The notes under the pieces were generated by a model. That model was not told where the DNA came from. It did not search any database and saw nothing but the letters and a program-made list of their open reading frames with translations. A program made the translations under genes and the position numbers. From positions 1 through 32,093 of the IMG/VR virus record IMGVR_UViG_3300037010_000735: a stretch of DNA of 32,093 bases; one strand, written 5' to 3'. Positions 1 through 28,586 of this stretch are shown piece after piece. The stretch comes from a virus. Numbering within the stretch: position 1 is the stretch's first letter; each line of letters opens with the position of its first letter.

Positions 1-2
1 AG

Positions 3-83
3 CTGTTCCAGCTGACTCTTGAAGGTAATCTTATTGACGACCTATCCCCGCTAGCGGGGATACCGCATCTTACTGTGTCTTGA
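3..83 (+). CDS. Leucine-rich repeat protein, C-terminal end only (partial)
   Basis: The window opens inside a reading frame that ends at TGA 81-83. Its last 26 residues contain one internalin-type leucine-rich repeat, with a GN-x-I-x-D-L-SPLAG core, in the same style as the complete LRR gene that follows. The DNA encoding PLAG is the palindrome CCCCGCTAGCGGGG (47-60), also found repeatedly in the next gene. This is therefore the tail of a neighbouring paralogue and shows that LRR genes are tandemly duplicated here. Start, full length and function lie outside the window. LRR solenoids normally bind proteins; nothing here says which. Confidence 0.8.
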   Translation: MFQLTLEGNLIDDLSPLAGIPHLTVS

Positions 84-110
84 ATAAATGAATATCAACT
101 CTATAACAAC

Positions 111-144
111 TACTTCAGTCTCTATACTTATAGAGACTGAAGTA
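111..144. terminator. Loopless hairpin after the upstream LRR gene
   Basis: A perfect 16-bp inverted repeat: TACTTCAGTCTCTATA at 111-126 pairs with 129-144 across a 2-nt loop (CT). It lies 28 nt after the stop codon at 83 and before the promoter-like block of the next gene. No T-run follows on either strand, so it is not a standard intrinsic terminator. It belongs to the window-wide family of 3'-end palindromes and probably marks or protects an mRNA 3' end; that role is inference. Confidence 0.6.
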
Positions 145-195
145 AAAGATAGTATACGACTAAACCAGCCGATTCTTGTATATTTATATTTTTTT

Positions 196-217
196 AATTA
201 CATAGTCTATAGGTATA
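196..217 (+). promoter_or_regulatory. Candidate phage promoter upstream of the LRR gene
   Basis: ATTACATA at 197-204 is followed by TATAGGTAT at 208-216, about 20 nt before the ATG and preceded by a T-run. Nearly the same arrangement occurs at 6093-6114 and, in variant form, at 6840-6868, 20891-20918 (minus) and 28558-28586 (minus). Recurrence at the same distance upstream of separate units supports a promoter. It does not resemble a spaced sigma-70 -35/-10 pair. Recognition by a phage RNA polymerase is inference. Confidence 0.55.
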
Positions 218-235
218 AATTCAAAAGGAGTTAAA

Positions 236-1015
236 ATGGAAGACTTAACAGAAGAACAACAATACACTGTAAAGTGTGTTGAACACTACACCGGTAAATC
301 ATTCAGTGATAGTCAAGATATCACTGAATTAGACTTAACCGACAGTGCCATCGAAGACACATCCCCGCTTGCGGGGATGTCTAAGCTGAAGATACTACGT
401 CTTAGTTATAACGAAATCGAAGATCTAAACCCGCTTGCGGGGATGACGAAACTCACTGAGCTGTACCTTGGTAGTAACGTTATCGAAGATATAACCCCGC
501 TAGCGGGGTTAATCCAGATGAAAAAGCTATATTTTAGATATAATGAAATCAGAGATTTAACCCCGCTAGCGGGGTTGACTAAACTCACTTGGTTGGATAT
601 CGGTCACACTTTCATCAGAAATCTATCCCCACTAGCTGGGTTAACCCAATTGAGAACGCTACATCTCGATTACAACACCATTGAGAGTCTATCCCCGTTA
701 GCGGGGATGACTAAACTTACTTGGTTATGTCTTGATAGTAACCGTATCGAAGATTTAACTCACATAGCTGGGTTGACCCAGCTAAAGAATCTAGGTCTTG
801 TTCATAATAGAATAACAGACCTGTTCCCACTAGTGGGGCTAACACAGCTCATTGAACTGGAGCTAGGACGTAACAAAATCGTAAATATATCCCCGCTAGC
901 GGGGATGACCCAGTTGGAAAAGCTTAGTTTATATAGTAATGAAATCGAAGATCTAACCCCGTTAGCAGGGATGAGACAACTAACTGAGCTGATAACTGAT
1001 AAAGATCTGCTGTGA
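236..1015 (+). CDS. Internalin-type leucine-rich repeat protein
   Basis: 259 residues, of which roughly 29-255 form about ten 22-residue leucine-rich repeats with the core PLAG-[ML]-T-x-L-x-x-L-x-L-x-x-N-x-I-x-D. No signal peptide, transmembrane segment or wall-anchor motif is visible, so the protein should be cytoplasmic. The start has a good ribosome binding site (AAAGGAG, then TTAAA before ATG 236). Family knowledge says such solenoids bind partner proteins; the partner is unknown. It follows a truncated paralogue at the window edge and precedes an ATPase gene by 24 nt, so the two are probably co-transcribed from the promoter-like block at 196-217. At the DNA level each PLAG codon set is a near-perfect GC-rich palindrome in an AT-rich genome. 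A role in host interaction or counter-defence is possible but unsupported by sequence. Confidence 0.9.
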   Translation: MEDLTEEQQYTVKCVEHYTGKSFSDSQDITELDLTDSAIEDTSPLAGMSKLKILRLSYNEIEDLNPLAGMTKLTELYLGSNVIEDITPLAGLIQMKKLYFRYNEIRDLTPLAGLTKLTWLDIGHTFIRNLSPLAGLTQLRTLHLDYNTIESLSPLAGMTKLTWLCLDSNRIEDLTHIAGLTQLKNLGLVHNRITDLFPLVGLTQLIELELGRNKIVNISPLAGMTQLEKLSLYSNEIEDLTPLAGMRQLTELITDKDLL

Positions 1016-1039
1016 GTAATAAAACAAAAAGGGGCTTAA

Positions 1040-1762
1040 ATGGAAAACAAAGCTAATAAGCTAGGGCAATTCGTCCTATCTGATGTCGAAGGACTCGGAA
1101 ACGAGCCTGTTAAGGTGGATTTCACTGACGGCGAAAATCCGCTACCAGTTGTTTTTGTGGTTGGACCTAATGGTGTTGGTAAAACAACACTGTTGGATGC
1201 TATTAACGATATGGTTATACGTATGGGTATACCAACGCTCTATCCTACTAAGATAGATAGTCTTGATGAGAATAAGGTTTTTACGACCGCGCTCAAGTCA
1301 TACATAGATAAAATAGTTTATGACGAAAGAGTCGAAGTTTCCGTAGCATATAATAGGGTAAACGACGAATTTGGAAGTTACTTTAGCATAGTTCAGGATG
1401 GACTGGTTTTTACACGCCTATGCGATCTCAAAGGGCTTGTATTCGATACCAAACATGGTTATAAAGAGTTCGCAGATCTCTCGTCCGGTGTTAAACGATA
1501 CCTTATCAATATAGTTTATATGATGTTGATCGGTTTTAAAAACGGTATCGTTTTGTTAGATAACCCAGACTGCAGTATACACATAGTTGTTCAGAAAAAG
1601 ATGCATGACCTGTATGTAAAATATGCCGTAGAGAACAACTGTCAAATCATAATCGCTACACATTCGCCGTTCATCATTGATAGTAACTGGAATTATGTAC
1701 GAAATATGGAGTTAGATGCAGCCGGTAATATTCTAGATCTAGTTGCGGAAGATAACATATGA
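1040..1762 (+). CDS. Small ABC/AAA-type ATPase (AAA_21/OLD-like)
   Basis: 240 residues with the core of a soluble ABC-class ATPase. Walker A is GPNGVGKTT at 42-50, an ABC-signature-like LSSG lies at 147-150, Walker B reads LLDNPD at 172-177, and the H-loop is ATHSP at 206-210. Relatives (AAA_21, OLD, RecF-like proteins) normally have DEP at Walker B, with the Glu catalytic; here it is Asn (DNP), so hydrolysis may be weak or switch-like. There is no membrane domain and no long SMC coiled coil, so this is not a transporter. It is preceded by AGGGG and sits 24 nt after the LRR gene in the same orientation, suggesting a two-gene unit. Its stop codon lies inside the stem of a strong terminator. 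Function is unknown; small ATPases of this type occur in phage accessory and defence modules, but no nuclease or effector domain is visible. Confidence 0.8.
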   Translation: MENKANKLGQFVLSDVEGLGNEPVKVDFTDGENPLPVVFVVGPNGVGKTTLLDAINDMVIRMGIPTLYPTKIDSLDENKVFTTALKSYIDKIVYDERVEVSVAYNRVNDEFGSYFSIVQDGLVFTRLCDLKGLVFDTKHGYKEFADLSSGVKRYLINIVYMMLIGFKNGIVLLDNPDCSIHIVVQKKMHDLYVKYAVENNCQIIIATHSPFIIDSNWNYVRNMELDAAGNILDLVAEDNI

Positions 1763-1792: not shown

Positions 1793-4007
1793 AATATCCA
1801 GACTCGCACAGCAGTCTATCATTATTTTTAACATAACCAATAGCTTCAAGTATCATATATAAAGCTTTACAGTTTTTTTCAACGACGCTTCTGATATCTA
1901 CTATTGTCAGTATATCCTCAATCATTCTTTCAACAACATTAGCCATCGGTACGTACAATGTTTTTACAGGATTCCGGTTAGACTTTCTCATATACTCCTC
2001 GAATCTAATAGCCAAGGCTCTATCACTTAGATTATTTAGAAAATCGTTAAAATCATTTCTATTCTCTATAGTTAGCGGAACAACATAAACCGTGTATGGC
2101 GGTTCCCCTGTCGAGCCATATTTGACAGAAAAAATACTATCCCATAAAACGTGTTCACGATATTTTGATTCAGTCCCACCCTGTTTGTATGCTTTTTCTG
2201 GTTGCAGTTGATTACGTTCGTAGTAGATAGTGCCACCAGCTCGGATATCATCCATTATAGTTCTTTCGTAATTAGCTACCCATCTGAGTTTACTCTCTAT
2301 ATCTATCAGATCACCCTGCATTATTGTTCTGTTTATTTCTGTTATAAAATTGTGGGCAGATTTAACAATGTTCTGTTCTGTTTTTGAGGATAGTATATGG
2401 ACCCCTTTGATCTCTGGTTTAGAATCTATTAGTACAATATCTTCACGAACAGCTGGTTGAGCGAAATAATGTCCAGCTACATTGGACGCAGTAAAAACAG
2501 GCCAACCAAACTCATTCTTCATAGCTAAAATACCTCTTTTTTCCTTAGGTACACCTATAATGGACGAATATATAATTATGTGGTGATCTGAGACTAACTT
2601 ATTAAGAGTCATAACAGTTGCCGAAATACCCATAGCTTCAGAGTTAAAAATCAATTTTCCAAAATACCACTTAACCCAATCATCATATGAACCACAGGTA
2701 CTATCTGTGTTCGATATAACTATGGATTCTCTGTACATATCTTTTATATATGCTATAGATGGTGGCGAGATTTTAGTCATAAAGAAAGCTTTGAACAAAT
2801 CCGAGTATACTTCGAGTTGTTTTATGATATTTTCCATAGTCGCCCCTATAGTGATACCCATAGGCTTAGTGGAGTTCTCCCGTATATTGTCATCGTCATC
2901 GTAATCTATAAACGAACCACGTATCTCATCCATACATATGTAGTGAGTTAAACTTCTTATTGTAGTGTTTGTATCACTCATTAGCTCATAGCAGTCTGAC
3001 GTCGTGTGTGTTTTTTTTTCTGATATATTTGTAAGCATATCACACACAAAGTCTTTATTCAATACACGCATATGGTAGAAATCATTCGTGTAATAAATGC
3101 TAGCTCTATCTATATCGGACATTGAATTTAAATAGTTAGCAAAACCATTATAAGCTGTATCGTTAACATCGTCTAACCAATAATTATCCGTAGATTTATG
3201 TAGAGAGGTTAATATATCTTCTGTGGATGGGTAGCATAATTTAAATTTTTCCATAGCCTTAGACACCAGCGTCTTATCGGTATGTGTTATTACTGCTGTA
3301 AAATAGCTGTAGACTTTGTCTATAGTATCGAACATTTTATTACCCATAACAAATGATTCCGTTACGGCATTACTAGTCGATGTAAGAACCCTCGTGGTAC
3401 TTGTGAGGGAACTATGTCCAGATGGCATATAAAGATTAGTAGACTCCGAAACTAGTGCGCCAGATACCGAGTTATTAGCGGTCTTCATGTTATTAGAAAG
3501 ACCTAAATAATACGAAGCTTTCTCGTACTCCCCTTTTTGAGTGTAATTAAAGAAGTTTTTTTTATAACCACTGCGTTCAATAGAACATTTCTCGTTGAAA
3601 ATAGATATAACGCTACGTAGGTTATTTGGATTTGTATAGACTGTTAGTGACGGAACAACAAGCGCGTCAGATTTATGGATCCTGTCGAAGTAAGACTGTA
3701 TAGGAGTTTTTTCCTTAATACGATCACCATTAGATTTATACATACTATTTGTGACCGTAACTTTATTAAGGTCCTCTTCTTTTGTTTTTTCTAATACAAA
3801 ATCATACGCCTCTTTCGCAGATATATTATATCTAACCATTAGTGCTTTTGTTAGTTGTTTCCTAGACTCTGTCAAAAAATTACCGTTTCTTGTATATAAA
3901 GCTTCATTTATATTAAACATCTTAACCTCATCCGTATATAATTCATAGATTAATGTTCGTATAATATAATGTTGACTTATTTGATCTGAATCTAATAACA
4001 TATCCAT
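1791..4007 (-). CDS. Divergent family-B DNA polymerase, polymerase-domain part
   Basis: 738 residues. Two family-B hallmarks are visible: motif B, K175-x3-N-S180-x-S-G183 (canonical K-x3-NS-x-YG, here Tyr to Ser), and motif C, SNTDS at 432-436 (canonical YGDTDS; D435 would be the conserved metal ligand, the first Asp is Asn). A basic segment, KEKRGILAMK at 488-497, is where KKRY-type thumb residues are expected. Motif A is not convincing; D114 with P119-S120 is a weak candidate. No 3'-5' exonuclease motifs are seen in the roughly 100 residues before this, so proofreading may be encoded elsewhere. It would replicate the phage genome. The gene is divergent from DNA ligase; the ATG has no clear Shine-Dalgarno, because the 22-nt gap holds the ligase's site on the other strand. 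Polymerase assignment is fairly confident; the exact subfamily (phiKZ-like) is inference. Confidence 0.72.
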   Translation of the reverse strand: MDMLLDSDQISQHYIIRTLIYELYTDEVKMFNINEALYTRNGNFLTESRKQLTKALMVRYNISAKEAYDFVLEKTKEEDLNKVTVTNSMYKSNGDRIKEKTPIQSYFDRIHKSDALVVPSLTVYTNPNNLRSVISIFNEKCSIERSGYKKNFFNYTQKGEYEKASYYLGLSNNMKTANNSVSGALVSESTNLYMPSGHSSLTSTTRVLTSTSNAVTESFVMGNKMFDTIDKVYSYFTAVITHTDKTLVSKAMEKFKLCYPSTEDILTSLHKSTDNYWLDDVNDTAYNGFANYLNSMSDIDRASIYYTNDFYHMRVLNKDFVCDMLTNISEKKTHTTSDCYELMSDTNTTIRSLTHYICMDEIRGSFIDYDDDDNIRENSTKPMGITIGATMENIIKQLEVYSDLFKAFFMTKISPPSIAYIKDMYRESIVISNTDSTCGSYDDWVKWYFGKLIFNSEAMGISATVMTLNKLVSDHHIIIYSSIIGVPKEKRGILAMKNEFGWPVFTASNVAGHYFAQPAVREDIVLIDSKPEIKGVHILSSKTEQNIVKSAHNFITEINRTIMQGDLIDIESKLRWVANYERTIMDDIRAGGTIYYERNQLQPEKAYKQGGTESKYREHVLWDSIFSVKYGSTGEPPYTVYVVPLTIENRNDFNDFLNNLSDRALAIRFEEYMRKSNRNPVKTLYVPMANVVERMIEDILTIVDIRSVVEKNCKALYMILEAIGYVKNNDRLLCESGY

Positions 4008-4026
4008 AAAGAATATAAGGAGTTAA

Positions 4027-6012
<1,986 letters not shown>

Positions 6013-6054: not shown

Positions 6055-6091
6055 CATCCACTAGTTTATAACTGGTAGATGTTTTTTTTTT
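6055..6091 (+). terminator. Probable intrinsic terminator after ligA
   Basis: CATCCACTAGTT (6055-6066) and AACTGGTAGATG (6070-6081) form an imperfect 12-bp stem with a 3-nt loop, followed by ten T residues. It lies 43 nt after the ligase stop and directly before the promoter-like block at 6093. A weaker 10-bp hairpin (5989-5998 with 6017-6026) spans the ligase stop codon. The same sequence in degraded form recurs at 6804-6839, before the next paralogue. Confidence 0.6.
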
Positions 6092-6092
6092 C

Positions 6093-6114
6093 AATTACAT
6101 AGTATATAGGTAAT
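6093..6114 (+). promoter_or_regulatory. Candidate phage promoter
   Basis: ATTACATA at 6094-6101 and TATAGGTAA at 6105-6113, 19 nt before the ATG at 6133 and directly after a T-run. This is the closest match in the window to the block upstream of the LRR gene (196-217), with the same spacing between the two boxes. Confidence 0.55.
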
Positions 6115-6132
6115 AAAACCAAAGGAGTCAAA

Positions 6133-6705
6133 ATGGTAGTAGGTTATTTTAACGGCAACATCGGAGCGCACTTCATCGATAATGATGGGCATTTAACACA
6201 TTTCTGTATCGAAGAACATGATGTCGATAACCTGGAAACTCTCTCTGGAGAGGATTTTAAGCTATACCTAAATGAGCTGGTGACCTACTTTAAGCTCAGA
6301 ATGGAGTCCATTAAAGATAGAGTCGAGGGCTATAATATTATAAAAAGACTAAATCTCGAAGGTATCGATGTGAGAGTGTTTGTTACAGAGCCTTTAGAGA
6401 ATGTGCTAAAACGGCATATCGGTAATTTAGCTATAATTAGTATATACGCTAAAGAATTCTTTAAGGAGCTTATAAACTATGCGAATAGTGTAGAATATCC
6501 TTGGTTTATTGTCGACCCAGGACGAGACCCTGGAGAGGGCGAAGATATGTTCGAAAAATATAAGAGGGTTGATGATATTTCATATATCTTCGACCTAGGT
6601 CGAGAAGCTCGAAATGGCGTTTCGATGTTTGAAAAATACACTGAACTGGCTAACAATTTATTGTTACCACTATTTCCTGTAGAGCAATATAGCTATAAAG
6701 GATAA
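6133..6705 (+). CDS. Unknown protein, paralogue A of a tandem pair
   Basis: 190 residues, no family recognised. It is soluble, acidic and probably mixed alpha/beta: it opens GYFNGNIGAHFID, followed by a long helical middle (about 45-125) and a charged C-terminal half containing two similar short segments, EDMFEKYKR and VSMFEKYTE. It clearly resembles the next gene over its whole length; shared blocks include NLETLS, FKLYL, HIGNLA, YAKEF and EYPW. Ribosome binding site AAAGGAG, spacing typical. It has its own promoter-like block and is followed by a perfect 30-nt palindrome, so it is probably expressed on its own. No catalytic motif is evident. Confidence 0.8.
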   Translation: MVVGYFNGNIGAHFIDNDGHLTHFCIEEHDVDNLETLSGEDFKLYLNELVTYFKLRMESIKDRVEGYNIIKRLNLEGIDVRVFVTEPLENVLKRHIGNLAIISIYAKEFFKELINYANSVEYPWFIVDPGRDPGEGEDMFEKYKRVDDISYIFDLGREARNGVSMFEKYTELANNLLLPLFPVEQYSYKG

Positions 6706-6723
6706 CGAGAACAGACCATCACT

Positions 6724-6753
6724 GGTCAGAAGCAGAGTACTCTGCTTCTGACC
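6724..6753. terminator. Perfect 30-nt palindrome after paralogue A
   Basis: GGTCAGAAGCAGAGT at 6724-6738 is followed immediately by its exact reverse complement (6739-6753). It begins 19 nt after the stop codon at 6705. There is no U-tract. It is one of the family of 3'-end palindromes in this window. Confidence 0.65.
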
Positions 6754-6839
6754 GTCACATTTAAATTCTCACGTAGCAACTATATTCTTTTTAAATTTTA
6801 AACATTTATCTAGTTATAAACTGGTAGGTGTTTTTTTTT

Positions 6840-6868
6840 AAATTATATACAATGGATATGTATTTAAA
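6840..6868 (+). promoter_or_regulatory. Candidate promoter, diverged copy
   Basis: ATTATATA at 6842-6849 and GATATGTATTTAA at 6855-6867, preceded by a T-run and by a CTAGTT-ATAAACTGGTAGGTG stretch matching that at 6060-6081. The whole leader appears to have been duplicated together with the downstream gene and then to have drifted. Confidence 0.45.
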
Positions 6869-6882
6869 CACAAGGAGCTAAA

Positions 6883-7443
6883 ATGGAAATAGGTTTTTTT
6901 AATTACAGTATTGGTGCGAGTTTCGTTGACGATCATGAAAATGTTACACATTTCACTATTGACAAACACTATACCGCTAATCTGGAAACTCTCTCTGAAG
7001 AGTATTTTAAACTTTACCTAAGCGGACTAATAGTAAAACTAAGATCGGAAATGCAATTCGTTAAAAATAGAATTGAAGACTATAATAATATGAAAAAAAT
7101 AGGTCTCAATACTATAAATTTAGAACAATTTGCTATAGACCCCTTAGAAGACATGCTAAAACTACATATCGGTAATCTAGCATTACTTAATGTATATGCT
7201 AAAGAATTTCTTAAAGAGGTTCTAGTCTATACAAAAAGATTAGAATATCCATGGACTCCTATCGATAAAAAACAAGTACACGAAGAAAGCGAAAATATAG
7301 ATATTTCGCATATTTTTAGTACAAAAATCGAGGCTGAATTCGGTCTATCAGATTTCATAATATACACGGAACTTGTTAACACTGAGCTATTACCGCGGTT
7401 TCCGTTAGACCAATATAGCTATAATGAAAGAGGATCCGAGTAG
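6883..7443 (+). CDS. Unknown protein, paralogue B of a tandem pair
   Basis: 186 residues, no family recognised. It aligns along its length with the preceding gene, sharing the opening GFFN-x-x-IGA-x-F and the NLETLS, FKLYL, HIGNLA, YAKEF and LEYPW blocks, but lacks the repeated MFEKY segments of paralogue A near the C-terminus. Ribosome binding site CAAGGAG. Leader and terminator context match those of paralogue A, so this is a gene-plus-leader tandem duplication. It is soluble, with no signal peptide or membrane segment. The divergence with retained core suggests both copies are under selection; function unknown. Confidence 0.8.
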   Translation: MEIGFFNYSIGASFVDDHENVTHFTIDKHYTANLETLSEEYFKLYLSGLIVKLRSEMQFVKNRIEDYNNMKKIGLNTINLEQFAIDPLEDMLKLHIGNLALLNVYAKEFLKEVLVYTKRLEYPWTPIDKKQVHEESENIDISHIFSTKIEAEFGLSDFIIYTELVNTELLPRFPLDQYSYNERGSE

Positions 7444-7461
7444 CGTAACAACCAATCACAA

Positions 7462-7495
7462 TCAGTCTGAAGCACGGCACCGTGCTTCAGACTGA
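7462..7495. terminator. Hairpin between convergent units
   Basis: A 16-bp perfect stem (TCAGTCTGAAGCACGG at 7462-7477 with 7480-7495) and a 2-nt loop (CA). It follows paralogue B (stop 7443) and the converging metallopeptidase gene (ends 7520). It has no U-tract on either strand and could serve both directions. Confidence 0.65.
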
Positions 7496-8890: not shown

Positions 8891-11800
8891 TTACTTTTTA
8901 AAAAATTTAGCAATAGCTAACTCAGTTACACCATCACATAATAAACCAGTTGTCCCTAATAAGTTTGCTGATTCAACAATCCTAGCACCCTCGGCAACGG
9001 CACAAAACAGACCATCTATAGGTTTACCACTCATTGTTGTTCTATTCTCAGAGAAAATATCACCGACAGTACACTTAAGTTGATTCCCTACGATAGCCTT
9101 ATCACTATGCCCCATATGCTCGTAGACTTTTATATAAAACTTTAGCTCTACTTCACCAGCTTCTAATCTACGACCATTCACACTATAGCTATTGTCAACA
9201 CGACCTGTGAATGTGGTTTTGTCTATAGTGTCGCTATCTGATTTATTCACGAGTTTTCTTATTGTTTTAGACATATCGCTTTTTTCACAGTTATAGCGGA
9301 TAGAGACATCGTTAATTGTTCCTAACACCTTAGCTTTTGGTGATGTCGACGCTATATTTTTAAGTGTCTCTAAAGATAATTCATCTAAGCCGACATCATC
9401 ACTATAACTATCTGGTAGAAGAACAAAAAGTGAGGTGTCTGGATTAACTTTTTCTCCAACCCGCAACACAGAAACTAAATTATCTGTCGCTTTTATAATA
9501 TACGACTTAGTTTTAGTTACCGTAGTGGCTAGTTTAGCTAAAACTTCATCGCTAAAAGAAATAGAGTCTTCATGTGTGGTTCTATCTATGACCTTAGCTA
9601 TCCTTAGGTTCGTCGACGACTTGTAGACAAGTTTAGTTTTATCGAAGATATCTGGTACAAAGAATAAACTATCATAAGATAAACAATCGCCCATTTTGAA
9701 CACGTGTCCGACACCCTTCACGTTAGGTACCTTATTGTGTGTGTAACAAACACCACTCTCTTCTTTAGAAGTCCACTCACCCAAACTGAAGGAGTCTTTA
9801 CTACCGTCCTCATACGTTACATCAATACCAGTAGTCTTGAACCCTGTCACCCTTCCGTTCATCTTTGCATAAACCGCAAACTTTTCACCAGCTTTCATAG
9901 CTATTGTGTTATCATAGCCCGTTGTTACAAATGGAATAACAGCATTATCGATAGGAACGATATGTGAAGCCATAATATTGGAAAAAGAAGCCCTCTTAGA
10001 ATCATCTTTATTTACGAACGGAGCCATTAAACCAGGTGTGGAGTATATATTAGCTTGACCGATACTTGATAATTCTGGCTCACTAACCAAACCCCGTATA
10101 TCATTCATCATCGGCGACCCAGTTAAAAAAGAGCTTAGACCAACGTCACCATTATCTTTATTCGCTTCGGAGATTATACCTATTTCAGATGGGTCCATTG
10201 CCCTTGTATCGATATTCATAGATATGGCTGTTCTACCACCAGCACCTAAATATGTCGTATCTTCCAACTGTTTTATTACGCTGAGCGGGTTGAGATCGTC
10301 GATTAGGACCTTGGAACTATCTTGATCTACCTTACTTGTGACTGAGTAGGGGGCTAATGAAAATTTTGCATTCTTGAAACGTTCTTTTGTACTGTAGTCC
10401 TTAACTGCTGTGGCTATTTCGCGGTAGAGCATACCAGCTACACGATCATACCCTCTGAAATAGAATGTACTTATGTCATACGGATTTTTATAGTTAGCAT
10501 CAACCAATAGTTCTGCAGACCTGATAAATAAACCTGATATTGTCGTTGGTTGTTTGAGTTCTTTCAATAGGGATTCTGTACGTGGGTCTACAAACATATC
10601 CATTACATTTTTTACTTCAGCTAAAACCCCTGCTTGTATGTTCAGAGTGGTTGATAATACACGCCCTATATGAACACCCTCAAGACTATCTCTAGATATC
10701 ATACCTGTACCTCGAGCCATAAGCTTAAAACCACCCAATATTAGGTCGCTAAAACCATAGTCTCGATCAATAACTAGATAGGCGTCTTCTAAACTAACGA
10801 TAATATAGTTATCTTTCGGCATACCTCTGACGAGCTTCGGTGTATACATATACTTGACACCCATAAGACCCATCGTCTTTTTAAAACCCAAAGTATATAA
10901 CAACAAGAACACTATAGGTAACTTCTGGGAGTATATCTCCGTGAATATGTATTCTATAGGTAAAGTTAGATCCCTTAAACCAAGAAAATCGATAAGATCA
11001 ACACTATCGATTATTGCATTGTTCTCATATACTTTAACAACACCATCGCTCCCAACGCTACCTATTTTATCACCACTTTTATAAAAGACAACAGAATTTT
11101 TTTTCTCAAAAATCTCACCATTCTTTTGTTCAAGACCCAAGATCTTAAACCTGTTCATATAGTCAAAACAGTAAACGTCGTCTCGAGATTTATAACTACC
11201 AACATATCTTGATATATACTCGTAATATCTGGGTAGATTAAGATCTAATGTATCTGTTGTCGCGGACACAATATTCGTTAACTCACCATCACGCTGTCTC
11301 CTCAATAATTCGTTATAAATAACATACCCTATATCGTTTCTTTTACCATCCACTCGCCGAACAAAGAGTTTGCCGTAATCCGACGATAACGAGACGGTCG
11401 TTCCGTCTATTTTTTTTATGGGTAGATCAGACCTCTGTTTTCTTAACGCGTATGAGTTACCACCCGACATGAATGTCCCGTCTTCGTTGATTTTATATAG
11501 ATTAAATCTAAATGTGAAACGGTTACCCTTAATGGTGCTAGCCACTACAGTGTGGGTTTCGGTACCTCCGAGTATGTTTTCTTCGTCCACCACACTGTGT
11601 TCGAGTACGATGTGACCTTTATTCTGTAAACCACCATATACAGACCGTAGTATATCTTTTTTGTATTTCTCTTTAATATATTTTTTAGTTAAAACCTTTG
11701 TTGTTACTTTTATACTTTCGGCTCCTAGTCCGAGATAATCAGGTGATGTTATTGTTTCTTTTGACTCAACTATGTCGACATCTAGATCGCTGTCTAAAGC

Positions 11801-13021
11801 TTCATTTATTGTCATACCTGTATACGCTGACTCTTGTGTCTTCTGATTTTCCAGCGCTTTTAATAGATTTTTACTAACAATTTTAGATATGAGACCACTA
11901 GATGCTGAGTCCGCTATTTTACTAGATATATCTCCAACATTATTCCTAGTGCTACTCATGATTTCGTTTTTTGTTACAACAACATCAACTGGTGTTTCAA
12001 TAGATCCATCTGTGTCTTCTGCGCTCAACTCGATTTCCTCGTCGATATGAGTCATAGCTGTTTCGTAATCATCACCGTCTTCGGATTGTGAATCTGCGGG
12101 TAGTTCTGTGTTAGAATATTCGGTGTCACTGTCAACAGTAGATCCATCATCGCTTATCTGGATTTGGTTATTCAGCTTCATTATGTAGGAGTATAAAGCT
12201 TTACGTACTAATTTAGCCGGTTCACTACCAGGAGCATCATTACTAAACTCAGAAATAAGACTATGAGCTGTTTTAAGTGTTATTCCACCTGTTTTTATTC
12301 CAAAAGAAAAAACAATAATCATGTCAGTATTTTTCAGAGCGTTAAACAGAGACTTCTCATAGTAATCTGGATTTAGATACATCCATAACTCGATTAAGAA
12401 CATAATCCTATAATCTTTATATTTCTTAAAAATAAGTACATCGCCACCTACGTATCTTTCTACCAAAGCTTCAATAACTCGTAGCGGCGGGATAACTAGC
12501 GGAATAGTTATGATTAAGAATTGATTTATTGGTTTCTGAGTGACAACCATAGGATTCAGGATGTTGTCAATAACCGTTAAAAGAGTGTTCTTGAACCGTG
12601 TGTAATTTGTTGTTATTTTGGTTTCGTCGTATTTATACATTTCAGATAATGTAGTGTAATTATACACGAAAACAGCGGTCGCTGGTAGGATGAATTTTGT
12701 AGCGGAGTCTTTTAGGTTTCGAATCCTTTTATCGTTTACATTGAAATCATCTATAATGTTCTTAATTAGTGGTCTCTTAACCCTAAATGGTTGCTCAGCC
12801 TGATCACTATATCTGAATACATTTTTTACTACTACAGTTTCCTGTAATGATATAAAGTTGTCATTCGCGTTTACCTCTAAACCACCGTCAGTTATCTTCA
12901 TATAGTGTATTACACTATATGGCGGTAGTTCGATCTCGGTTTGGTGAATAAATTTATCGTTTATAAGCGAACTAAATTTAGTAATACTAAATTGTTTAAT
13001 AAAACTGCTGATAGAGATCAT
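8891..13021 (-). CDS. RNA polymerase beta subunit, single unsplit chain
   Basis: 1376 residues. The C-terminal two thirds follow RpoB. The fork/rifampicin-region equivalent is at about 918-966 (YLGAGGRTA, then DTRAMDPSEIG and GDVGLSSFLT, where RpoB has the HPSHYGR and PEGPNIGLINSL motifs). An IPF at 1029-1031 matches the RpoB IPFLEHDDANRA segment. HEDSISFSDE at 1150-1159 matches FEDSI-x-SE, with E1151 and D1152. K1308 and K1316 have the exact eight-residue spacing of E. coli K1065 and K1073 in GDKMAGRHGNKG. The beta N-terminal lobe is recognisable near GTFMSGGNSYALRKQR (515-530). About 400 extra residues precede it, including an acidic stretch (about 290-345). In phiKZ-like and AR9-like phages beta is split over two genes; here it is continuous. 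It starts 8 nt after the baseplate-like gene, with AGGAG. Neighbours suggest a virion enzyme; beta-prime is outside the window. Confidence 0.9.
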   Translation of the reverse strand: MISISSFIKQFSITKFSSLINDKFIHQTEIELPPYSVIHYMKITDGGLEVNANDNFISLQETVVVKNVFRYSDQAEQPFRVKRPLIKNIIDDFNVNDKRIRNLKDSATKFILPATAVFVYNYTTLSEMYKYDETKITTNYTRFKNTLLTVIDNILNPMVVTQKPINQFLIITIPLVIPPLRVIEALVERYVGGDVLIFKKYKDYRIMFLIELWMYLNPDYYEKSLFNALKNTDMIIVFSFGIKTGGITLKTAHSLISEFSNDAPGSEPAKLVRKALYSYIMKLNNQIQISDDGSTVDSDTEYSNTELPADSQSEDGDDYETAMTHIDEEIELSAEDTDGSIETPVDVVVTKNEIMSSTRNNVGDISSKIADSASSGLISKIVSKNLLKALENQKTQESAYTGMTINEALDSDLDVDIVESKETITSPDYLGLGAESIKVTTKVLTKKYIKEKYKKDILRSVYGGLQNKGHIVLEHSVVDEENILGGTETHTVVASTIKGNRFTFRFNLYKINEDGTFMSGGNSYALRKQRSDLPIKKIDGTTVSLSSDYGKLFVRRVDGKRNDIGYVIYNELLRRQRDGELTNIVSATTDTLDLNLPRYYEYISRYVGSYKSRDDVYCFDYMNRFKILGLEQKNGEIFEKKNSVVFYKSGDKIGSVGSDGVVKVYENNAIIDSVDLIDFLGLRDLTLPIEYIFTEIYSQKLPIVFLLLYTLGFKKTMGLMGVKYMYTPKLVRGMPKDNYIIVSLEDAYLVIDRDYGFSDLILGGFKLMARGTGMISRDSLEGVHIGRVLSTTLNIQAGVLAEVKNVMDMFVDPRTESLLKELKQPTTISGLFIRSAELLVDANYKNPYDISTFYFRGYDRVAGMLYREIATAVKDYSTKERFKNAKFSLAPYSVTSKVDQDSSKVLIDDLNPLSVIKQLEDTTYLGAGGRTAISMNIDTRAMDPSEIGIISEANKDNGDVGLSSFLTGSPMMNDIRGLVSEPELSSIGQANIYSTPGLMAPFVNKDDSKRASFSNIMASHIVPIDNAVIPFVTTGYDNTIAMKAGEKFAVYAKMNGRVTGFKTTGIDVTYEDGSKDSFSLGEWTSKEESGVCYTHNKVPNVKGVGHVFKMGDCLSYDSLFFVPDIFDKTKLVYKSSTNLRIAKVIDRTTHEDSISFSDEVLAKLATTVTKTKSYIIKATDNLVSVLRVGEKVNPDTSLFVLLPDSYSDDVGLDELSLETLKNIASTSPKAKVLGTINDVSIRYNCEKSDMSKTIRKLVNKSDSDTIDKTTFTGRVDNSYSVNGRRLEAGEVELKFYIKVYEHMGHSDKAIVGNQLKCTVGDIFSENRTTMSGKPIDGLFCAVAEGARIVESANLLGTTGLLCDGVTELAIAKFFKK

Positions 13022-15947: not shown

Positions 15948-15989
15948 AACTACTAGTAGTTCATGTTGCGTTATAACGCAACATGAACT
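15948..15989. terminator. Overlapping palindromes downstream of the capsid gene
   Basis: A perfect 32-nt palindrome (left arm AGTTCATGTTGCGTTA at 15958-15973, right arm 15974-15989) starts 5 nt after the capsid stop codon. It overlaps a second, 14-nt palindrome, AACTACTAGTAGTT (15948-15961). Neither has a U-tract on the minus strand. It may set the 3' end or stability of the abundant capsid mRNA while allowing some read-through into the next gene. Confidence 0.65.
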
Positions 15990-15994
15990 AACTT

Positions 15995-18292
15995 TTAAAC
16001 GTTATGTGTATTGAAAACTGTTTTTTGGGCTAAAGCTTCATTAACACCCGTTAACTCGATCAAATGCATAACAGGTGCTGTTACGTAGTGACTGAATCGT
16101 TGGATGTTTTGCGCTGTTTTGACAACACTGGTTTTAGTCGTCATACCAGTACGTTGACCAACAGGAATGATCAATGGAGGGCATACTAGACGTACACCCC
16201 AGTTTGTGATAGACGGTTCCCCGCTTGTTTCTACTGTGGTTGCTGATGGAACAATAACAACAGTATCCCGCATTGTATCGTACAAAGTACTAACAACGTT
16301 TACAATTACATTATCTGAAATAGCAATATCATCATGACCCAACTCTAACAACATGGCCAAGCTACTATGAATAGCGATAGTCAAACGGATAGGTTGGTTT
16401 TCACCATGAATTTGTTGATGTGCGATCATAAATCCTGAGTTGATCAACATATTAGTAATAGCTGGTCGGATGCTATTAACTAGAGCTGCCCGCATATCAA
16501 CCATTTTTTCAGATGAACGCAATGTATTAACCGCAGCGCCTAAATCTAAAGTACCTGTTTCAAAATAAGGGTTATAGAAAGGTCTGTGTGGAGACACTGG
16601 TGTATTAAATGCAGTTTGGAAAGCTGCTTCTCCATTAGTTTTAGCCGCTTTCATTTTGTTTACTGTAAACAAAAGATGTTCAACAGCTTCTGAGTGCATC
16701 TGCATACCGTTTTGGGCTGAAAGACTATCAATAAGGTCTGCATCAGGTCCGTTATTATCAAACACAGCTTCAATAAGCGCTAAACCTGTGCGGGTATTTA
16801 CACCATAACGACGACTAAATGATGTCATACGGATTAAACGTCCAATACCAGAAAGATCAAGGTTACTGTAGTTGGCATTCAACGTACAACCGGCTAAACT
16901 TAGATTAACGCTTAGAGCATCTGCTATACTGATAAATTCAGCACTGCTACTAACGATAACATCGCCAGCTGGGTTCGTAACACTTAAAATTTCAAGATTA
17001 CCAAATGGTGAATACATTTGAGTTCCACTAGCTGTATTAATATCACCCGACAGACCATATCCAATTTGAATAACATAACCAGCTGGTAGAGCCGCTAGAA
17101 TAGCTGATTTTTCTCCAGTGTGTTTTGTTGTTTTTGATGTATTAATAACGAACACTTGATCTTTGAAACTTAGACGCATATCTTTGGTATCGACAGTCGT
17201 TCCAGTTGCTTCTACAAAGTCTCCGCCACCTTTACCAGATACGTCGTCAAACAAATACTCCACAGCAGAGTTTGCCCCGGTGAGTTTGAAGTACACCCGT
17301 TGTAGAGAAATTGCCGGCGATAGCGTCCGTGATAGTGAAGGAGATCCAGATGTTAGCTCACTATCAGGGATAGAGAGACCAATCAAGCTAGTCTTTACAT
17401 TCAATGCCAATGGAGCCGTTGTTGTTGGGGCTCCGTTCGCTGAGGTTACATACGAACACGCACCGATAAATTCTTTATCATTAACGCCCACGATGTAGTT
17501 AGGCACGACCTTAGTGACTTCTGTATCATATAAACCTGGTTTATATAGTTTAGGGATTAAAGCATTGTCGATGAGGGGAGACATGACAGACCCGTTTATA
17601 TTCTGACGCGCGTTAGCATCCAAAATAGCTGGGTATCGGATTGTGTACTGAAAACCAGGTGATAAAGCTTCAATAGCGATCGAAGGGTATAGAGCTCTGT
17701 CGAACTCGTTGAATCCGTTCGCACTATTTACGCCTACCAAGAAACTCAATTTAGCTAGGGCCGATCCGTCAGCAGAAGCTGAATCAAAGTTCTCAAGTCC
17801 AGCCAATGCTCCCGAGGCGTACATTTTATCGTATAGGTTATAGTCGATGTTGGTTACGTTACCTGAATCAGCAATAGATAATTCTGGTTTAGCTCCCTCG
17901 GCACCGACTGAAAGATTCAACAATGTCGCCTTTGGATCAATCATAGCTACAGCGGAGTATCGAGCCATATTCCGCTCAGCTAACGTATATGTTTGTGGAG
18001 TAGTAACTTTACTCAAACTACCATTAGGATTCCTCTTAACCTCATTTACATTAGTTCCCATATAGAATGATTGCAAAGCACCATCTAAACGGGATACCGC
18101 ATCAGTACCGCCTGAAGTTGAAGCAACTCGATCCGCTTCAAAACCTGGAGTGATACCAGCGATTTTTTTAAGTGCTACTCCCGTCGGTGTGGCACCATAG
18201 CAACCAGATACGTACTCGTCATACGCTTTTAACGTTGCAACTGTTCTTGGGTTATTAGACCCATTTTCATTTTCTGATTTAGACCAACTCAT
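15995..18292 (-). CDS. Major capsid protein (phiKZ-like)
   Basis: 765 residues, close to the 747 of the phiKZ capsid protein. GFNEFDRALYPSIAIEA then GFQYTIRYPAI (193-222) matches the N-arm/E-loop signature of jumbo-phage capsid proteins (GF-x-E-A-x-YP-x-x-V then G-x-x-x-TIR). The C-terminal 200 residues contain a P-domain-like helix-strand pattern (IRLTIAIHSSLAMLLELG, then IVNVVSTLYDTMRDTVVIVPS), as expected for an HK97 fold. phiKZ-type capsid proteins lose an N-terminal propeptide by cleavage after S/A/G-x-E; GAE at 130-132 is a candidate site here. Compared with its neighbours the gene is less AT-rich and uses more regular codons, as expected for the most abundant virion protein. It starts 17 nt after the preceding gene, with GGGATAACC before the ATG, and is followed by a strong palindrome. 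Confidence 0.85.
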   Translation of the reverse strand: MSWSKSENENGSNNPRTVATLKAYDEYVSGCYGATPTGVALKKIAGITPGFEADRVASTSGGTDAVSRLDGALQSFYMGTNVNEVKRNPNGSLSKVTTPQTYTLAERNMARYSAVAMIDPKATLLNLSVGAEGAKPELSIADSGNVTNIDYNLYDKMYASGALAGLENFDSASADGSALAKLSFLVGVNSANGFNEFDRALYPSIAIEALSPGFQYTIRYPAILDANARQNINGSVMSPLIDNALIPKLYKPGLYDTEVTKVVPNYIVGVNDKEFIGACSYVTSANGAPTTTAPLALNVKTSLIGLSIPDSELTSGSPSLSRTLSPAISLQRVYFKLTGANSAVEYLFDDVSGKGGGDFVEATGTTVDTKDMRLSFKDQVFVINTSKTTKHTGEKSAILAALPAGYVIQIGYGLSGDINTASGTQMYSPFGNLEILSVTNPAGDVIVSSSAEFISIADALSVNLSLAGCTLNANYSNLDLSGIGRLIRMTSFSRRYGVNTRTGLALIEAVFDNNGPDADLIDSLSAQNGMQMHSEAVEHLLFTVNKMKAAKTNGEAAFQTAFNTPVSPHRPFYNPYFETGTLDLGAAVNTLRSSEKMVDMRAALVNSIRPAITNMLINSGFMIAHQQIHGENQPIRLTIAIHSSLAMLLELGHDDIAISDNVIVNVVSTLYDTMRDTVVIVPSATTVETSGEPSITNWGVRLVCPPLIIPVGQRTGMTTKTSVVKTAQNIQRFSHYVTAPVMHLIELTGVNEALAQKTVFNTHNV

Positions 18293-18308
18293 GGTTATCC
18301 CTTTTTTT

Positions 18309-18866
18309 TTATAGTTTCATTAAAGATGAAAAATATGGATGCTTTAGAACAGCATCATCACCGTATTGCCGAGAATACTTACTCAATATAGGTCTAGCTA
18401 ATTTATCCATAAACACGTCATTTTCTGCATTTAGGAGCTTTAAAACATTCAAACTAACAGAAATAAACATAACACACGATCTTGTGTCGAATACGAGCTT
18501 ATAATTATTATCATCGCTATCGTAATAATCAGATAAATTTATACGACTATATTCGCTTTCAGAACTACCGATCTCCATAACCTTACTGACAAAATCTATA
18601 CCTTGGCGATCCGGCGTTATAGCCGAACCAAACATTTCACCCCCCACATTAAGTCTATTATCCAGCTGTTTGTTTAGCTTATATAATATAATTAAATCAT
18701 CTAACGATAACACATCCCTTAATTCCCTCCTAATAGTAGCTACTACATCCACATCAGATGTATCACATAGCAATCGATCTATACGGTATAATAATGATCG
18801 ATCGGGACCACTAATAAGAGCATCATATATCTGCGACGGTATAAAAAAAATAGATGGTCTTTCCAC
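18309..18866 (-). CDS. Unknown protein encoded just upstream of the capsid gene
   Basis: 185 residues, no family recognised. It begins with GTG at 18864-18866, with GGAG eight bases upstream. It is soluble and mainly helical in the first 90 residues (RSLLYRIDRLLCD, VVATIRRELRDVL, LDDLIILYKLNKQ), with an acidic DYYDSDDNNYK stretch around 120. It is the first gene of the capsid operon, 17 nt before the major capsid gene, and is transcribed divergently from the helicase. By position it could be a capsid accessory or assembly factor, but it lacks the length and uniform coiled coil typical of a scaffold. Function unassigned. Confidence 0.75.
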   Translation of the reverse strand: MERPSIFFIPSQIYDALISGPDRSLLYRIDRLLCDTSDVDVVATIRRELRDVLSLDDLIILYKLNKQLDNRLNVGGEMFGSAITPDRQGIDFVSKVMEIGSSESEYSRINLSDYYDSDDNNYKLVFDTRSCVMFISVSLNVLKLLNAENDVFMDKLARPILSKYSRQYGDDAVLKHPYFSSLMKL

Positions 18867-18940
18867 TATTTACGCTCCAATATTTTAATTCATTAAAAAC
18901 AACACCATTTGATACCGAGCATATAAAATATAAAAATGGT

Positions 18941-18971
18941 CTAGTTACGTAATTTTCCAGATAGGTATTTA
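18941..18971 (+). promoter_or_regulatory. Candidate promoter upstream of the helicase
   Basis: GTTACGTA at 18944-18951 and ATAGGTATTTA at 18961-18971, 23 nt before the ATG. The downstream box matches the TATAGGTAT of the other candidate promoters; the upstream box is looser and the spacing between boxes is longer. It lies in the 127-nt divergent gap between helicase and capsid operon. Confidence 0.4.
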
Positions 18972-18993
18972 GTAGAAAGATAAGGAGTACTGT

Positions 18994-20517
18994 ATGCCAA
19001 CAATCGATAGTATCATTAAGTGTTTAAACTTAGCATATAACACTAGGATAATCACAAATACATTTAAACAATCAGATAAGAACATTATAATGTCTATCTT
19101 AAACCCTAAAAAGAGGTTTAATCAGCCGTCATCTGTTGATAGCGATACAAACGTAGTCGCTGAGCTAACTAGACTAATAACCGACATTATATCAACAGAT
19201 AACAGACACTCAACTAAATCCATAATCCAGTCTCTTAACGTAATATTGGTTAACGATAAAGATCTTTTAGTCGAAGCTATGAAGTTCATAACAGAACAAG
19301 AAGATGTTAGCCGTGTCAAAGAGGATACAAAACATCTACGAAAACAATTATCAGCTATCAATAGGTCTAAAGTCGTTGTAGAGGCTGTCAGTTCAGCTAG
19401 ATATCAGCTGATGGATTCTGCCGATAAAGATGAAGAGAGGTTTGACAGTGAACTAATTAAGTTAATAAATACCCTCCAAACTTTTAGAAAAAACAATTCC
19501 TCAGACGGTATGATGGATCATAAATTCGTTCTTAGTAGTAATGATAATGATTTATCTGAGCTAGATCTAGTAAATACAGAAACAGCGGAACGTTTCGTTA
19601 GTGGATGGGCTAAACTAAACACAGCACTACAGGGTGGTGTAGCTCTCGGAGAGATGGTCGTCTTTAATGCTTTAGCGTTTAACTACAAAACATCGTTATT
19701 ACAGACCCTGTTTATACACGCTGGTCTATTCAACAAACCTTTCGATCGTGGTCGTGGTAAGGGTACTATTTTATATATCACTCTAGAGGAAGACCCTAGA
19801 CGATATATCTGGTTTTTCTATAAATATCTGTACTATCTCAAAAATGGAGTACTTCCTAAAAAAGGTGCTGAGAATAGCGCAAGCATAATGAGCTTTATAG
19901 CTGAAGAAATGTCTAGAACAGGATTTCATGTTGAAGCTATTAAAATATTAGCCTCAGACTTCTCTCTTGATAAACTTAAGACTTTAGTCGAAGATTATGA
20001 GTCTGCTGGTTTTGATATACAGGGTATCTGGTACGACTATTTAGCTAAAACCCCGCTTACTGGTTTATCTGAAGCTAATAGTGTTGTATACGGTACAAAA
20101 GAACTATTTCGATCTACTAGAGAATACTTTAATGGTAAGAAAATAGCTTTCACAACAGTACATCAACTCAACTCGTCAGCTAAAGATAAATTAAAAGACG
20201 GAACACCATCTATGGATTTTGTTAAAGAAGTTGCTGGTAAAGGGTACACTGAAAAAAACAGAACTCTGGATCAGGAACCAGATATTGATTTTACAATACA
20301 TATCGGACATGAAAACAGAAAAAGCTATCTGACATTCATGAACACTAAAAGTCGTGGTGATAAGGTGATCACCGAAGAAGAAGCTTATTTTGTAGAAGAA
20401 TTTCCAAAAGAGGCTCCGATTATGCCAGATGTTTTTAATAAGAACCGAATCCACGGCGAAGCCGTAAAAGAAACAAAAAAATCCAACTCCACATTAGAAG
20501 AATTACTTGGTCTATGA
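18994..20517 (+). CDS. DnaB-like replicative helicase with degenerate Walker A
   Basis: 507 residues. A poorly conserved helical N-terminal part (1-190) precedes a RecA-like motor of the DnaB/gp41 class. The entry GWAKLNTALQGGVALGEMVV (204-223) matches TGF-x-x-LD-x-x-x-GGL-x-x-GE. The P-loop reads NALAFNYKTSL (225-235): both glycines of GxxxxGK[TS] are replaced but K232-T233 remain. LEEDPRR (264-270) is at the catalytic-Glu position, WYDYLAK (346-352) is Walker B with D348, and TTVHQLN (387-393) is the sensor equivalent of DnaB SQLNR. It would unwind DNA at the phage fork. It is a single plus-strand gene between minus-strand virion operons, with AAGGAG before ATG 18994. Its stop codon lies in a hairpin. 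An inactive motor is unlikely because the other motifs are intact. Confidence 0.82.
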   Translation: MPTIDSIIKCLNLAYNTRIITNTFKQSDKNIIMSILNPKKRFNQPSSVDSDTNVVAELTRLITDIISTDNRHSTKSIIQSLNVILVNDKDLLVEAMKFITEQEDVSRVKEDTKHLRKQLSAINRSKVVVEAVSSARYQLMDSADKDEERFDSELIKLINTLQTFRKNNSSDGMMDHKFVLSSNDNDLSELDLVNTETAERFVSGWAKLNTALQGGVALGEMVVFNALAFNYKTSLLQTLFIHAGLFNKPFDRGRGKGTILYITLEEDPRRYIWFFYKYLYYLKNGVLPKKGAENSASIMSFIAEEMSRTGFHVEAIKILASDFSLDKLKTLVEDYESAGFDIQGIWYDYLAKTPLTGLSEANSVVYGTKELFRSTREYFNGKKIAFTTVHQLNSSAKDKLKDGTPSMDFVKEVAGKGYTEKNRTLDQEPDIDFTIHIGHENRKSYLTFMNTKSRGDKVITEEEAYFVEEFPKEAPIMPDVFNKNRIHGEAVKETKKSNSTLEELLGL

Positions 20518-20538
20518 GTTCACATGAACTCATAGACC
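20509..20538. terminator. Hairpin spanning the helicase stop codon
   Basis: A 14-bp perfect stem (GGTCTATGAGTTCA at 20509-20522 with 20525-20538) and a 2-nt loop (CA). The helicase TGA (20515-20517) is inside the left arm, and the convergent gene ends 7 nt beyond the right arm at 20545. It has no U-tract. Confidence 0.65.
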
Positions 20539-20544
20539 TACTGT

Positions 20545-20877
20545 TTACTTAAAACCACTTCCCTTGAAAGAGAAGAGGTCTCTTTGATTTCCAAGGACCG
20601 TACGTCCTGAGAAATTCTCGTATAGTTTAGTGCCAGCATATATCGCCAGCCCGATACCTCCAACAATTCCGACACCAGTGAGGACATCACCGACAGTGAT
20701 GTCCTCATCTCTACGACACCCGCCACCTTGAATTGTTATTGACATCGGTGGTGGCGTAGCCGTATTCGCTGCTTTTTTAGCACGGTCAATTTCCTCTTGG
20801 GCATTTTTAAGTGCCTCGTTCAGTACATCGTCATTAGATGGTTCGTCGACACCATCGTCCCTATGGTCTTCGGTCAT
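20545..20877 (-). CDS. Small protein with one membrane span
   Basis: 110 residues, no family recognised. Residues 1-40 are charged and helical (rich in D, E, N and A), followed by a TPPP linker, a short hydrophilic patch with GGGCRRDED (51-59), and one glycine-rich hydrophobic segment (about 63-82, DVLTGVGIVGGIGLAIYAG) that could span the membrane. The C-terminus is basic. AAAAGGAG precedes the ATG, and a clear member of the candidate promoter family lies at 20891-20918, so it is probably transcribed on its own. Size and topology could fit a lysis accessory or inner-membrane virion protein, but nothing is diagnostic. A perfect 12-bp hairpin lies within the coding sequence (20679-20707). Confidence 0.72.
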   Translation of the reverse strand: MTEDHRDDGVDEPSNDDVLNEALKNAQEEIDRAKKAANTATPPPMSITIQGGGCRRDEDITVGDVLTGVGIVGGIGLAIYAGTKLYENFSGRTVLGNQRDLFSFKGSGFK

Positions 20878-20890
20878 TTTATCTCCTTTT

Positions 20891-20918
20891 AATTAAATAC
20901 ATATATACTATATGTAAT
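20891..20918 (-). promoter_or_regulatory. Candidate phage promoter, minus strand
   Basis: Read on the minus strand it is ATTACATA, then TAG, TATATATGTATTTAATT, preceded by a T-run. It ends 13 nt before the ATG, with the AAAAGGAG site in between. The ATTACATA box is identical to those at 197-204 and 6094-6101, and the arrangement T-run/boxes/Shine-Dalgarno is the same. Confidence 0.55.
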
Positions 20919-20942
20919 CGAAAAAAAATCAAATAGCATAAT

Positions 20943-20976
20943 AAGCTGTATACACCTTATAAGGTGTATACAGCTT
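20943..20976. terminator. Perfect 34-nt palindrome spanning a stop codon
   Basis: Left arm AAGCTGTATACACCTTA (20943-20959) is followed directly by its exact reverse complement (20960-20976). The stop codon of the FN3-like gene (20957-20959) lies at its centre. There is no U-tract on the minus strand. It is the longest perfect palindrome noted in the window. Confidence 0.65.
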
Positions 20977-25577: not shown

Positions 25578-25592
25578 TATGAATATATTAAA
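25578..25592 (+). promoter_or_regulatory. Promoter-like box upstream of the HNH gene
   Basis: TATGAATATATTAAA occurs here 14 nt before ATG 25607 and again, identical over 15 nt, on the minus strand at 28558-28572, upstream of the 33-residue membrane protein gene. This suggests a shared promoter element. There is no ATTACATA box upstream in this case. Confidence 0.4.
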
Positions 25593-26064: not shown

Positions 26065-26100
26065 AACGTATAGATTACACTGTAGTGTAATCTATACGTT
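26065..26100. terminator. Hairpin between HNH gene and convergent virion gene
   Basis: A 17-bp perfect stem (AACGTATAGATTACACT at 26065-26081 with 26084-26100) and a 2-nt loop (GT). It starts 3 nt after the HNH stop codon, and the stop codon of the convergent gene (26092-26094) lies inside the right arm, so one element serves both transcripts. It has no U-tract. Confidence 0.65.
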
Positions 26101-28557: not shown

Positions 28558-28586
28558 TTTAATATATTCATATACTATATGATTAT
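28558..28586 (-). promoter_or_regulatory. Candidate promoter, minus strand
   Basis: On the minus strand: ATAATCATATAG, TATATGAATATATTAAA, then AGGGAGG and the ATG of the 33-residue gene. The TATGAATATATTAAA box is identical to the one at 25578-25592, and ATCATATAGTATAT resembles ATTACATATAGTATAT at 20891-20918. Confidence 0.5.

Follow-up and report, generated by a model that had tools for sequence, protein, structure and literature searches.

A promoter-like sequence family ahead of four units in a fragment of a phiKZ-like jumbo phage

The DNA described here, referred to throughout as the window, is a virus record from IMG/VR with a length of 32,093 bases and is probably a fragment. Judged from its sequence, it is a 32-kb piece of a divergent phiKZ-like, RNA polymerase (RNAP)-encoding jumbo phage. 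Profile matches were obtained for a major head protein or major capsid protein (phrog_3231), a DNA polymerase (phrog_2927), a DnaB-like helicase (phrog_3213) and a virion structural protein (phrog_2926), and an NAD-dependent ligase and a PHIKZ087-like baseplate protein are encoded as well. The window carries one homologue of the beta subunit of the virion RNA polymerase (vRNAP; phrog_3148, 8891–13021, minus strand), which matches the virion-associated enzyme in some annotated phages; the remaining subunits lie outside the fragment. Since the polymerases of the window share only about 22–35% identity with known relatives, the lineage is considered divergent. Protein-based searches for near relatives of the window phage found none, and no further contigs of it were found. 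The gene order helicase, small gene, major capsid gene is common to the window (15995–20517) and N1M2 (L056, 29558–33979), and in both the helicase gene is divergent from the other two. The genes of the DNA polymerase and the ligase start back to back, 22 nt apart (4007–4030), with none of the modules described below between them. The tail fibre gene (23476–24315) contains two 300-nt direct repeats that are 85% identical.

Four genes in the window are preceded by the same module, whose consensus reads T7–10, 1–2 nt, ATTAYATA (box 1), 3–6 nt, a TATAKGTAW-like box (box 2), 8 nt, AAGGAG, 2 nt and AAAATG. The first module (189..238, plus strand) consists of T7 (189–195), ATTACATA (197–204), TATAGGTAT (208–216), an 8-nt spacer, AAGGAG (225–230) and the ATG at 236. 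It stands before a unit (236..1762, plus strand) encoding a leucine-rich-repeat (LRR) protein (236–1015) and an AAA/ABC-type ATPase (1040–1762). The LRR gene is itself preceded by the apparent end of another LRR reading frame (1–86), and its 66-nt repeats (window 1–1015) contain CCCCGCTAGCGGGG-like palindromes. The second module (6082..6135, plus strand) is composed of T10 (6082–6091), ATTACATA (6094–6101), TATAGGTAA (6105–6113), the 8-nt spacer, AAGGAG (6122–6127) and the ATG at 6133, and the third (6831..6885, plus strand) of T9 (6831–6839), ATTATATA (6842–6849), GATATGTAT (6855–6863), the same spacer, AAGGAG (6872–6877) and the ATG at 6883. Behind these two (6133..7443, plus strand) lie paralogous proteins without assigned function, of 190 and 186 aa and 48% identical. 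The fourth module (20875..20928, minus strand) comprises T8 (20928–20921), ATTACATA (20918–20911), TATATGTAT (20905–20897), the 8-nt spacer, AAGGAG (20888–20883) and the ATG at 20877, is near-palindromic, and precedes the gene of a 110-aa protein without assigned function (20545..20877, minus strand). While the start-to-start distance of the two boxes varies slightly (12, 12, 14 and 14 nt), the distance from box 2 to AAGGAG is exactly 8 nt in all four cases. In each of them, 19 nt thus separate the end of box 2 from the ATG, a distance inside the range of 13–23 nt that a preliminary description of this DNA had given for the distance of its proposed promoter family from the start codon.

The module was tested against shuffles of the window. 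The pattern ATTAYATA-N0–6-ATAKGTA was found four times (0.03 expected), as was ATAKGTAW-N8-AAGGAG-NN-AAAATG (0.00 expected), and the combination of T-run and box 1 never occurred in the shuffles. ATTACATA alone shows no enrichment in the window (4 found, 4.25 expected), so the enrichment lies solely in the combination of the boxes and their position and not in ATTACATA by itself. Because both two-part patterns were written after the sites had been seen, two less circular tests were added: the ranking of held-out sites and a pairwise comparison of upstream regions. In the former, a matrix built from the other three sites ranked the held-out one first among about 64,000 positions in all four rounds. 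With the four-site matrix, the members score 35.5–39.3 in the window; once shifted-register reads of the same sites are set aside, the best score elsewhere is 18.9, from the opposite strand of the fourth module, which is near-palindromic. In the latter, 276 pairs of 24 upstream regions were aligned unsupervised, with the ribosome-binding site left out. Five of the six pairs among the four module genes reached a similarity of 21.3–30.4; the highest value among 150 shuffled sets was 21.1, and the real pair that came next scored 15.2. A plain ZOOPS expectation–maximization (EM) motif finder run on the same 24 upstream regions gave no significant result relative to shuffles; given such a small set of sequences, it places too many sites. 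The pairwise comparison picks out just the four modules. Taken together, the four sites form a real, tight, promoter-like family.

The preliminary description had proposed a recurrent promoter family before separate units, with seven sites. This is borne out for the four at 196–217 (plus), 6093–6114 (plus), 6840–6868 (plus) and 20918–20891 (minus) and fails for the three called related boxes, at 18941–18971, 25578–25592 and 28558–28586: the 20 best places in the matrix scan include none of the latter, and the pairs they form score within the noise. Two of these places share an identical 15-mer, TATGAATATATTAAA, at 25578–25592 (plus) and 28572–28558 (minus), which is unrelated to the module family. 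It stands 29 and 27 nt ahead of two unrelated starts, those of an HNH endonuclease and of a small gene from 28545 (minus strand). TATGAATATATTAAA, which contains TATATTA, may be a second, rarer signal.

A further question is whether the four sites resemble each other simply as copies of one duplicated gene-start cassette, alike by common descent and not by function. For the genes at 6133 and 6883 such a duplication is clear: they are paralogues whose upstream regions were duplicated along with them, and the DNA likeness of these regions continues into both genes. As their products are 48% identical, the four sites amount to about three independent cases. Beyond this pair, no recognisable relationship links either the LRR gene or the 110-aa gene to the genes at 6133 and 6883, and divergence between the modules has altered the 8-nt spacers but spared the boxes, which makes descent from a common cassette a very improbable account of the family as a whole.

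The T-run was originally described as the tail of a terminator-like sequence from which most of the motifs follow. A T-run is indeed present in all four modules, but a hairpin is attached to it only at 6133 and 6883, where the hairpin (fold z −4.6 and −4.2) stops immediately upstream of the motif. Ahead of the LRR gene and of the 110-aa gene, the closest strong hairpin is a perfect inverted repeat that lacks a T-run, and a gap lies between it and the T-tract. Since the T-tract is not always a terminator tail, it looks like a part of the module. Perfect inverted repeats with arms of 13–16 bp and a 4-nt loop, mostly without a T-tract, are found at the 3′ ends of many units (111–144, 1749–1784, 6724–6753, 7462–7495, 15957–15990, 20509–20538, 20943–20976 and 26065–26100) and are perhaps terminators or 3′-end stabilisers of the phage polymerase system.

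The position of the hairpins also bears on the level at which the module acts. The invariable 8 nt to AAGGAG could be expected of an RNA-level leader signal, such as a translation enhancer or operator, held at a fixed distance from the Shine–Dalgarno sequence. Yet the structure of the leader RNAs is no better than chance (z 0.35, 0.05, 0.07 and −1.25), and no promoter could fit ahead of the boxes at 6133 and 6883, where the hairpin and its T-run take up the space. Because the hairpin ends right before the motif, only the module stretch is left to restart transcription there. A purely RNA-level role is therefore considered improbable, and a promoter is preferred.

The distribution of the modules over the window is uneven. 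Genes of the capsid, vRNAP, baseplate, polymerase, ligase and helicase are without a module, while accessory genes and genes of unknown role have it; with 25 genes, this preference falls short of significance (hypergeometric p about 0.11). In the matrix scan no module was found across the capsid/vRNAP block (7.5–18.9 kb), including the stretch before the vRNAP gene, which agrees with the absence from the capsid operon noted at the outset. The density of four modules per 32 kb is similar to that of early promoters in phiKZ, with 28 (PMC13282480), and N1M2, with 20 in the 200 kb read; for AR9, 41 early starts have been reported (PMC5312081). Among the sites found in N1M2, no early promoter stands directly before the annotated genes of DNA polymerase, ligase, helicase, capsid and vRNAP.

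Each RNAP-encoding jumbo phage has been described to possess an AT-rich conserved, phage-specific motif near −10 upstream of its early operons, and the same review states that the reader of this motif must be the virion polymerase (PMC7598289). Against this background, we regard it as modestly probable that the four modules form one promoter class read by a multisubunit RNAP of the phage, most likely the virion enzyme. Because the reader would most likely be an enzyme carried in the virion, the units behind the modules would be early genes. Such a class fits the density of the modules, their spread over separate, small, mostly unassigned units and the lack of any in the capsid/vRNAP block. The upstream part of the promoter would comprise the poly-T tract and ATTAYATA, with the TATAKGTAW box as its −10-like part. 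Initiation would then take place a few bases past box 2, just ahead of the Shine–Dalgarno sequence, leaving a leader of about 13 nt; with box 2 taken as the −10-like element, the putative starts are near 223, 6120, 6870 and 20890. The choice of a phage RNA polymerase as reader, already made in the preliminary description, is hence plausible, given the vRNAP-beta homologue in the fragment, the AT-rich early motifs of RNAP-encoding jumbo phages (PMC7598289) and the lack of an excess of sigma-70-type promoters.

Two other polymerases have to be weighed. Promoters served by the host enzyme, under a sigma factor of either the host or the phage, come to mind since many sigma-type promoters have AT-rich boxes before genes. 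Among the matches listed (13 weaker ones lie outside), none of the TTGACA-N16–18-TATAAT type falls at the four modules; sigma-70-type matches are no commoner in the window than expected (73 found and 76 expected; 51 found and 60 expected); and phiKZ-like phages are known to need no host polymerase for their transcription (PMC7598289, PMC13282480). The chance that the modules belong to this type is accordingly small. The second candidate is the non-virion RNA polymerase of the phage itself, which would make the modules middle-class promoters. Such a second polymerase exists in the same phage group, phiKZ middle promoters have a weak AT-rich element near −24 (PMC7598289), and box 1 lies upstream of box 2, where a middle-type element might sit. 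The middle and late promoters of phiKZ are little conserved, in contrast to the strong conservation of the modules, which is typical of the early class, so that a middle class appears rather unlikely. The late promoters of phiKZ (TATG) and AR9 (AACA-N6-TA/G), served by the non-virion polymerase in the phage group to which the window belongs, are likewise short and weakly conserved, unlike the modules, and the AR9-type late pattern does not single out the modules in the window.

The virion polymerase thus remains the preferred reader, and the closest counterparts of the modules are the early promoters of phiKZ (TATATTAC), AR9 (AAATATATATTAT-N6-G), EL, OBP, 201phi2-1 and N1M2, whose motifs are likewise AT-rich, strongly conserved and placed before several separate units. 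The early vRNAP promoters of phiKZ-related phages are also phage-specific, of similar density and absent from the capsid and vRNAP genes. Unlike phiKZ-type early promoters, the modules have no TATATTAY core and no G at the expected start, but two boxes, a poly-T tract and a fixed 8-nt distance to the Shine–Dalgarno sequence. TATATTAC was found upstream of none of the window genes, and the place of the expected G, six bases after the core, is taken behind box 2 by A, C, A and A in the four modules. The missing TATATTAC core with its G after six further bases speaks against the preferred reading, as does the small number of about three independent sites. It is conceivable, if doubtful, that the modules represent a two-box, poly-T promoter type of a jumbo-phage polymerase, without the TATATTAY core and locked at a fixed distance to the ribosome-binding site, which would give all messages of the class an identical, minimal leader of about 13 nt.

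Kinship with the early motif of N1M2 was considered and rejected. The printed consensus ranked three modules first to third window-wide. With a matrix built on 20 real N1M2 sites, however, the modules were not at the top in any trim, and the best placing was rank 7, at full width. In the reverse search, the window matrix missed the N1M2 sites as a group, though two were matched. The consensus match is put down to the degenerate A/T letters of the consensus, and the comparison with known jumbo-phage early motifs suggested at the outset brought no counterpart, neither through TATATTAC nor through the N1M2 matrix. Applied to 86 phiKZ-like stretches of about 2 Mb (80 contigs and slices of N1M2, phiKZ and EL), the window matrix gave a best score of 23, compared with 35–39 for the modules. 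Exact and relaxed pattern scans of viral and genome collections returned isolated matches, one per contig, that look like chance; those from the viral collections, when read, showed no likeness to the window phage besides a generic HNH match, and those from the genome collections were judged from their number and titles only. Two records from one sample (L008 and L030) carry the pattern before a ribosome-binding site, but each has one site and no vRNAP match. As far as can be seen from these sequences, the module family seems specific to the lineage of the window phage; its sequence is new, its kind already known.

Little is yet understood about sigma-free promoter recognition by phiKZ-like virion RNA polymerases. 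Here, a divergent lineage whose motif is clearly different and well defined would offer a contrast case, in which the motif may be paired with the sequence of its vRNAP in the search for co-varying recognition residues. In the lineage of the window phage itself, the modules would mark candidate early, host-takeover genes.
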